The translations under genes were made by a program, and so were the position numbers. Below are positions 39,010 to 40,931 of a DNA stretch of 51,965 bases, one piece after another. Source of the DNA: Bacillota bacterium (lineage in GTDB: Bacteria > Sysuimicrobiota > Sysuimicrobiia > Sysuimicrobiales > Segetimicrobiaceae); contig JAJPJJ010000099.1 of assembly GCA_021324295.1 (NCBI GenBank), positions 1 through 51,965 on the forward strand, given 5' to 3'. The first letter of the stretch is position 1. Every line of letters starts with the position of its first letter. The notes beneath the pieces are model-generated. The model worked only from the letters and a program-made list of their open reading frames with translations. It was not told the DNA's origin and did no database searches.

Positions 39010-39783
39010 ATGAGCGAAGACGCCAAGCGCGCGGTGCGATCGCAGTTCGGCCGGCAGGCCTCGTGGTACACGGTGAGCCGGGTGCACCGTCAGTCCAGCG
39101 GCCTCGCAGAGCTGCTGCGCCTGGCGTCCCCGGCCCCCACCGACCGCGTGCTCGATGTGGCCACCGGGACCGGCTTCACCGCGCTCGCGCTCGCGCCCCG
39201 CTGCCGCGAGGTCGTCGGCGTGGATTTGACGCCGGGCATGGTGAGCGAGGCGCATGCCCTGCGGGAGGCGCGCGGCGTGACGAACCTCCGCTTCTGCCTC
39301 GGTGACGCGGAAGCCTTGCCGTTCCGCGACGGCTCCTTTGACATCGTCACGTGCCGGCACGCCTCGCACCATTTCCCGTACCTGCCCCTCGCGCTCGCCG
39401 AGATGACCCGGGTTGTCAGGCCCGGCGGCCGCGTCCTGCTGGACGATACCTGCGCGCCCGAGGATCCGGGCCTCGCCGCGCTGATGAACGAGTGGGAGCG
39501 CCGGCGGGACCCCTCTCACGTCGCCGACCATCCGCCGAGCCTCCTCATCCACATGCTGGAACGGGCCGGGCTGCGCGTCGCCGACACCGCGCTGACCTCT
39601 GTCCCTCTGGAGTTCGGCGACTGGACGAGGCGGAGCGGCGTCCCGGAGGCGGAAGCGGCGGCGCTGCGCGAGAGCTTCGTGCGCGCGTCGCCCGACGCCG
39701 CCGCCGCGTTCGGGATCCGCGTCGGGGAAGGCGACATCCATTTTTCGTGGGACGAGATCGTGATCCTCGGGATCAAGCCGTAG
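39010..39783 (+). CDS. Class I SAM-dependent methyltransferase
   Basis: A 257-residue UbiE/Methyltransf_11-like protein. Motif I VLDVATGTGFTALAL is near residue 46, the acidic end of strand 2 is VVGVDLTPGMVSEA, then GDAEALPFRDGSFDIVTCRHASHHF and RVVRPGGRVLLDDT follow. The C-terminal part (LEFGDWTRRSGV) is found in methyltransferases acting on small molecules. The substrate is unknown. GGGGGA just before ATG 39010. It ends 221 bases before terC. Confidence 0.85.
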   Translation: MSEDAKRAVRSQFGRQASWYTVSRVHRQSSGLAELLRLASPAPTDRVLDVATGTGFTALALAPRCREVVGVDLTPGMVSEAHALREARGVTNLRFCLGDAEALPFRDGSFDIVTCRHASHHFPYLPLALAEMTRVVRPGGRVLLDDTCAPEDPGLAALMNEWERRRDPSHVADHPPSLLIHMLERAGLRVADTALTSVPLEFGDWTRRSGVPEAEAAALRESFVRASPDAAAAFGIRVGEGDIHFSWDEIVILGIKP

Positions 39784-39805
39784 CGCAGCATGAGGCCCCC
39801 CGCCG

Positions 39806-39835
39806 TTGACAGGGAGGGTCGGTCTCTGCTAGGGT
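39806..39835 (+). promoter_or_regulatory. Promoter of terC
   Basis: TTGACA (39806-39811), 18-base spacer, TAGGGT (39830-39835) with TGC before it. A start near 39842 coincides with the first base of the riboswitch. Confidence 0.6.
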
Positions 39836-39841
39836 AGCGGC

Positions 39842-39946
39842 GACGAGGGGAGTACTCGGGAGCCCGGACGGGCTTCGGCGACGGCCGTCAGGACGGCGGG
39901 AGACCGCCCGGCCCCGCCCAGAGAAGACGCTGCGACGAGACCTCCG
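39842..39946 (+). ncRNA. yybP-ykoY manganese riboswitch
   Basis: The RNA has the two conserved ends of this class: GAGGGGAGTA at 39845-39854 and ACGAGACCTC at 39935-39944, whose GAGG and CCTC pair to form P1. Between them is the CCGTCAGGACGGCGGGAGACCGCC stretch resembling the P3/P4 region. yybP-ykoY aptamers bind Mn2+ and commonly sit before TerC/Alx-type membrane proteins, which is what follows. The 3-prime strand of P1 is also the start of a terminator hairpin. Confidence 0.88.
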
Positions 39947-39980
39947 ATACGACATGGCCGTGTCGGAGGTCTCTTCCTTT
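39937..39980 (+). terminator. Riboswitch terminator hairpin
   Basis: An 11-bp perfect stem (39937-39947 with 39963-39973), 15-base loop, then TTCCTTT. Its 5-prime arm includes the 3-prime strand of P1, so ligand binding would prevent termination and switch terC on. Confidence 0.85.
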
Positions 39981-40004
39981 CCGGCCCGGCCGCAGGAGCG
40001 GAGC

Positions 40005-40931
40005 ATGAGCGCGCAGGCGGCTCTGTGGGTCGTGTTCCATCTGGTCGTGGCCGGGCTGATCGCGCTCGACCTCGGCGTCCTCACCCGCACGCCACACGTC
40101 CTGTCCACCCGCGAGGCGGGGCTCCGCAGCCTCGCCTGGGTGCTGCTGGCGCTCCTCTTCAACGCCGGCGTGTGGTGGGCGCGCGGCCCTCACGACGGCC
40201 TCGCGTTCTTCACCGGGTACCTGCTCGAAGAAGCGCTCAGCGTCGACAACATCTTCGTCTTCCTCCTGATCTTCCGGCACTTCGCCGTCCCGCCGCGACT
40301 CCAGCCGAAGGTCCTGAACTGGGGGATCCTCGGGGCGGTCGTGATGCGCGCCGCCTTCATCGCAACGGGCGTGACGCTGCTGCACACCATCCACTGGATC
40401 GTGTACGTGTTTGGCGGCCTGATCATGTGGGCGGGCTTCCGCATGCTCCGCGCCCCGGAGAGCGCCCCGGCCGCGGAGCGGCTGGCCGCGATGCGGGCCC
40501 TCGGTGCCCGCATCGCCCCGGAGGCGGAGGCCGCGGACGCTCTGGTGCTGCGCCGCGGCGGACGGTTGTACGCGACGCGGTTATTGCTCGTGCTGGTCGT
40601 GATCGAGATCACCGATCTCGTGTTTGCGATCGATTCGATCCCGGCCATCCTGGCTGTGACGACCGATCCGTTCCTCGCGTACACGTCCAACGTCTTCGCG
40701 ATCCTGGGGCTGCGCTCGCTGTACTTCCTGCTGGCCGGGGTGATGCACCTGTTCCGCTACCTGAAGACGGGGCTGGCCATCGTGCTGATGCTCGTGGGTC
40801 TCAAGATGCTGCTGAGCGGCATCGTGGCGATCCCGGTGGGGGCCATGCTCGGCCTCGTCGGCTCGATCCTGGGACTCAGCGTCGCCGCGTCCCTGTTCCA
40901 CCGGCCGCGCGGGGCCGGCGTCCTTCAGTAA
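40005..40931 (+). CDS. terC: TerC-family membrane protein (Alx/MeeY-like, probable Mn2+ exporter)
   Basis: A 308-residue polytopic protein with seven or more helices. It carries the family motifs GYLLEEALSVDNIFVFLLIF (near residue 72-91), and VVIEITDLVFAIDSIPAILAVTTDPF (near 205), which hold the acidic residues thought to bind metal, and RSLYFLLAG. TerC/Alx proteins export excess manganese or load secreted enzymes. The riboswitch supports the Mn2+ role. ATG 40005 is preceded by AGGAG at 39994-39998; earlier ATGs lie inside the terminator. Confidence 0.9.
   Translation: MSAQAALWVVFHLVVAGLIALDLGVLTRTPHVLSTREAGLRSLAWVLLALLFNAGVWWARGPHDGLAFFTGYLLEEALSVDNIFVFLLIFRHFAVPPRLQPKVLNWGILGAVVMRAAFIATGVTLLHTIHWIVYVFGGLIMWAGFRMLRAPESAPAAERLAAMRALGARIAPEAEAADALVLRRGGRLYATRLLLVLVVIEITDLVFAIDSIPAILAVTTDPFLAYTSNVFAILGLRSLYFLLAGVMHLFRYLKTGLAIVLMLVGLKMLLSGIVAIPVGAMLGLVGSILGLSVAASLFHRPRGAGVLQ

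Follow-up and report, generated by a model that had tools for sequence, protein, structure and literature searches.

The window, that is, the whole analysed stretch of 51,965 nucleotides, contains a terC gene (40005-40931, start codon ATG at 40005) encoding a 308-aa TerC-family membrane protein (PF03741, E 1.2e-49); this gene and all features described below lie on the forward strand. Upstream, a methyltransferase ORF of the same strand ends at 39783. A promoter (39806-39835) composed of TTGACA (39806-39811), an 18-nt spacer and TAGGGT (39830-39835) was found exactly where a preliminary description of this DNA had placed it, and the predicted transcription start is at approximately 39842. This promoter was not listed by a consensus scan because its -10 element, TAGGGT, has three of the six consensus bases, while the scan demanded at least four. 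A comparable pair (TTGxxx-17/18-TAnnnT) was present upstream of 19 of the 19 related aptamers; in a few of these leaders, taken singly, it was no better than in shuffles. A probable Shine-Dalgarno region, assigned by sequence and inference, is located at 39993-39998, outside the terminator described below.

The leader of terC contains a yybP-ykoY aptamer spanning 39845-39944. The preliminary description had put GAGGGGAGTA at 39845-39854, ACGAGACCTC at 39935-39944 and CCTC at 39941-39944, which agreed with the sequence letter by letter, and the yybP-ykoY core that it had recognised there was borne out by profile homology, covariation and the conservation of L1 and L3. Helix P1.1 is formed by GAGG (39845-39848) and 39941-39944, and its pairing was supported by covariation: 19 of the 29 homologues have G-C in the outer column and 9 have A-U. 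The 5' strand of L1, GGAGTA (39849-39854), belongs to the conserved core GGGGAGTA (39847-39854); the four bases of its 3' strand, GAGA (39937-39940), also begin the terminator stem. Both GGGGAGTA and GAGACC (39937-39942), which closes P1.1, were invariant in 17 leaders; the arrangement GGGGAGTA-N75-100-GAGACC occurred once in the window, compared with 0.01 expected from shuffles. The 5' strand of P1.2 is CTCG (39855-39858), in which UCG (39856-39858) pairs with CGA (39933-39935) and C39855 stands opposite C39936, a mismatch specific to the window's family.

Beyond P1.2, a P2 hairpin of 7 bp with a GGAC loop (39859-39876) was supported by covariation. The P3 arm (39877-39918) consists of P3.1 (39877-39887/39909-39918) and P3.2 (39895-39899/39904-39908, GAGA loop), with L3, TCAGGAC (39888-39894), on the 5' side between them. 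The TCA of L3 was invariant in alignment A1. Since TCAGGAC matches L3 of Lactococcus lactis, UCA41AUUC (PMC6754395), A39890 is the expected Mn2+ ligand and, judged by this match, the putative counterpart of the Mn2+-sensing A41 of L. lactis and A48 of X. oryzae. In one genus (L006, L008, L009, L063), L3 was TCAGTCC instead of TCANNAC, so that the otherwise conserved loop A was C. The last arm, P4 (39919-39932), which would make the junction a four-way one, is a weak hairpin, CAG...CTG, with 3 bp in the window, and it was variable or absent among relatives: it was lacking in L011, L016 and L019, and 54% of P4 cells were paired. A three-way junction form of the yybP-ykoY aptamer of Streptococcus pneumoniae has been reported in a review (PMC9495176).

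The upstream regions of TerC homologues in the order were read, and most of them carried the same element. Pattern search and a covariance model together gave 19 leaders in the order, including that of the window (18 homologues). No second copy of the aptamer was seen in the window's genome in the covariance-model search, and a separate TerC search of genome contigs gave two loci, both without the leader; within the window's family, matches were found in only 4 of 12 genomes. A covariance model built from 17 aligned leaders (R1), with the Escherichia coli alx and mntP leaders outside the training set, matched the alx leader at 41.6 bits (E 5.6e-8). It matched the mntP leader weakly, at 21.5 bits, unrelated matches reaching up to 17.7 bits; this match coincided with that of the Rfam model RF00080, and the two models also coincided at a leader in genome G208. 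Therefore, R1 and RF00080 describe the same class. A second model (R2), built from twelve leaders outside the window's family, matched the window at 59.9 bits (E 1.1e-13), and R2 alone did not separate alx (17.4 bits) from background (17.6 bits). The alx leader shares GGGGAGTA, CGTCAxxACG, CCGG and GAGACCT with the window and precedes a gene for a related protein, a TerC-family exporter, but has a longer P4.

The P1.1-P1.2-P2-P3 secondary structure was backed by covariation. Among 29 sequences, two-sided changes were found in 27 of the 32 pairs, and 88% of cells could pair; no shuffle reached the observed values of pairing and two-sided change. Compensated cells numbered 190, compared with 67 +/- 7 in shuffles and 24-57 in slid controls, in an alignment that was fitted to the model and thus favours the structure. 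An alignment produced by MAFFT before any model had been built agreed, with 57 compensated cells versus 28 in shuffles. It could be supposed that the hairpin before terC is merely the terminator of the methyltransferase gene, accompanied by a chance GGGGAGTA and no aptamer, as the same-strand methyltransferase ORF ending at 39783 and the silence of RF00080 would permit. However, the methyltransferase stop and the hairpin are separated by the promoter, the homologues covary, and both R1 and R2 match the locus. On the strength of the promoter position and the covariation, this explanation was rejected as highly improbable.

An intrinsic terminator hairpin (39937-39973) with a 7-nt loop and an energy of -27.5 kcal/mol overlaps the end of the aptamer and is followed by an imperfect U-tract, TTCCTTTCC (39974-39982). 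It was the sole terminator found in 39700-40060, where 0.1 would be expected by chance. An 11-bp stem beginning at 39937 had been proposed; the start was correct, but the stem has 15 bp (39937-39951/39959-39973), the 11 bp being its first 11 Watson-Crick pairs. The CCTC at 39941-39944 is at once the 3' strand of P1.1 and part of the 5' arm of the terminator, as had been proposed for P1, and this arrangement was kept in all 19 leaders of the order, including the window. In leaders with AAGG/CCTT in P1.1 instead of GAGG/CCTC, the hairpin still paired with that strand, one base being unpaired in L019; L017 had no T-rich tail behind the hairpin.

The sharing of this strand bears on the direction of control. 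Some yybP-ykoY switches act on translation, as does that of E. coli mntP (PMC11647493), and an OFF switch or translational control via the terC ribosome-binding site could be imagined here. Nevertheless, the ribosome-binding site is outside the predicted helices, and the shared strand makes P1.1, the ligand-stabilised helix of the family, and the terminator mutually exclusive, so that either of these modes was considered very improbable. Aptamer homology, covariation, the conserved shared strand, promoter placement and gene context form the basis of the preferred reading, according to which the locus is, with high probability, a transcriptional ON riboswitch of the yybP-ykoY (Mn2+) class located before terC. 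Points against this reading are the shortness of P1.1 (4 bp) and of P1.2 (3 bp, with the C.C mismatch beside L1), the imperfect U-tract, the background-level score of alx with R2, and the folding energies and the silence of RF00080 described below.

The mechanism has already been established in L. lactis and was carried over to this locus rather than discovered here. In the yoaB leader of L. lactis, a transcriptional ON switch, the 3' segment of P1.1 lies in the terminator stem, and it was shown experimentally that Mn2+ stabilises P1.1 and thereby causes read-through (PMC11087558). The window shares with that leader the L1 and L3 core and the shared P1.1 3' segment; it differs in being GC-rich, with a P1.1 of 4 bp and a P4 of 3 bp, and in controlling terC. 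Read-through is predicted for the window by analogy, because it has been demonstrated in this relative. Accordingly worded for this locus, the transcript would begin near 39842, and when Mn2+ is absent, CCTC (39941-39944) would join the 15-bp terminator and RNA polymerase would halt at approximately 39980. When Mn2+ is present, L1 (GGAGTA/GAGA) and L3 (TCAGGAC, with A39890) would dock around the metal. P1.1 (GAGG/CCTC) would be stabilised, leaving the terminator stem short of part of its 5' arm, and the weakened terminator would let the polymerase read through into terC. The TerC product might then export Mn2+ or load it onto secreted enzymes. Mn2+ as the ligand, read-through and the activity of TerC were thus deduced for this locus.

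Nearest-neighbour energies favoured the terminator fold (-72.9 kcal/mol) over the aptamer (-42.3 kcal/mol), metal-dependent docking being ignored in this calculation. Energy folding of the pre-terminator transcript gave a shifted P1. As a confirmation of the aptamer, energy folding was set aside as uninformative: either the shifted P1 prevailed or a GCGGCG/CGCTGC helix formed upstream instead, and that helix draws on bases 5' of the predicted transcription start.

A variant of the switch may be considered for the window's family. In four of its four leaders, the base after GGGGAGTA was C or U, mismatched with C39936, and P1.2 had three pairs. G39847 offers this base a pairing partner in the hairpin CGAG-GGGAGTA-YTCG (39844-39858), and the hairpin appeared when the terminated transcript was folded to minimum energy. 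It is conceivable, although rather doubtful, that this hairpin is an added anti-P1.1 helix that holds the 5' strand of P1.1 and L1 in the ligand-free state. If so, it would represent a switch variant with a competing helix on either side of P1.1; this proposal rests on four sequences, too few to judge its importance.

The preliminary description had suggested scanning with the RF00080 covariance model, which failed to recognise the aptamer: it gave no match at this place, whether the gathering cut-off was applied or E values up to 10 were admitted. Rfam scans of the window at gathering and permissive thresholds gave only unrelated weak matches. Over 43 genomes of the order, RF00080 gave nothing above its cut-off; the maximum was 17.6 bits, and none of these matches was at a leader. 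Thus RF00080 (Manganese, yybP-ykoY) represents the same class as the window, yet matches neither the window nor the order's leaders. In the positive control with the same library, RF00080 recovered the mntP leader of E. coli at 41.6 bits, less than its cut-off (45); at E<=0.01, RF00080 (Rfam 15) did not report the alx leader of E. coli (L046 2375-2500). Because RF00080 also misses alx, its silence does not refute the assignment; a match to it is a database criterion, not a biological one. When both models were run at one cut-off on a sample of 340 genomes, R1 had matches in 28, of which 19 belonged to the training order, against 2 for RF00080. The current Rfam model therefore overlooks most such switches, and a negative RF00080 scan does not mean that a Mn2+ riboswitch is absent. 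The printed structure line of RF00080 has no P1 helix. The locus is new solely as a divergent, Rfam-invisible member with an ordinary mechanism, and it extends a known metal-sensing switch into a GC-rich, little-studied order.

Genes behind the leaders of the order encoded TerC (13 leaders), a shorter TerC-family protein (two, L041 and L042), a P-type cation ATPase (two, L044 and L063/L068, the latter then followed by terC), a zinc metallopeptidase (L066/L069) and an unrecognised product (L039/L067). In other lineages, R1 matches preceded genes for P-type ATPases, an M48 peptidase, an MFS transporter, a carbonic anhydrase, an outer-membrane efflux protein and, as in the order, the zinc metallopeptidase; the gene behind the RF00080 match L081 was GDT1. 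The TerC proteins of Bacillus subtilis show Mn efflux activity and serve in the metalation of exoenzymes; a Mn-responsive riboswitch regulates meeY (ykoY) there (PMC10550928). Downstream TerC and P-type cation ATPases are consistent with control of Mn2+ homeostasis. The aptamer might instead have drifted to another divalent ion, such as Ca2+, Ni2+/Co2+ or Cd2+, while still being an ON switch for a transporter, since a review (PMC9495176) reports tighter in vitro binding of Ca2+ than of Mn2+ by a yybP-ykoY aptamer of S. pneumoniae, and the window's family shows an altered border between L1 and P1.2. Given the conservation of L1 and of the TCA in L3, and the place of TerC and P-type ATPases in the usual Mn2+ regulon, such a drift appears unlikely.

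Several leaders preceded other genes. In L067 (2098-2200, genome G008), aptamer and terminator were both complete and no adjoining gene was recognisable as a Mn2+ gene; the 167-aa ORF after it had no Pfam match. Two unrelated lineages, represented by L069 (aptamer 1218-1320, PF04298 gene from 1431) and L074, had Mn2+-type aptamers before a membrane peptidase of the Zn_peptidase_2 (YugP-like) type, and in L071 such an aptamer preceded an M48 (HtpX-like) peptidase. A literature search on Mn2+-type aptamers before Zn_peptidase_2 or M48 peptidase genes found no report; in B. subtilis, HtpX has been co-purified with TerC proteins (PMC10550928). In L079, an aptamer (1501-1606) was found before a beta-carbonic anhydrase gene (PF00484).
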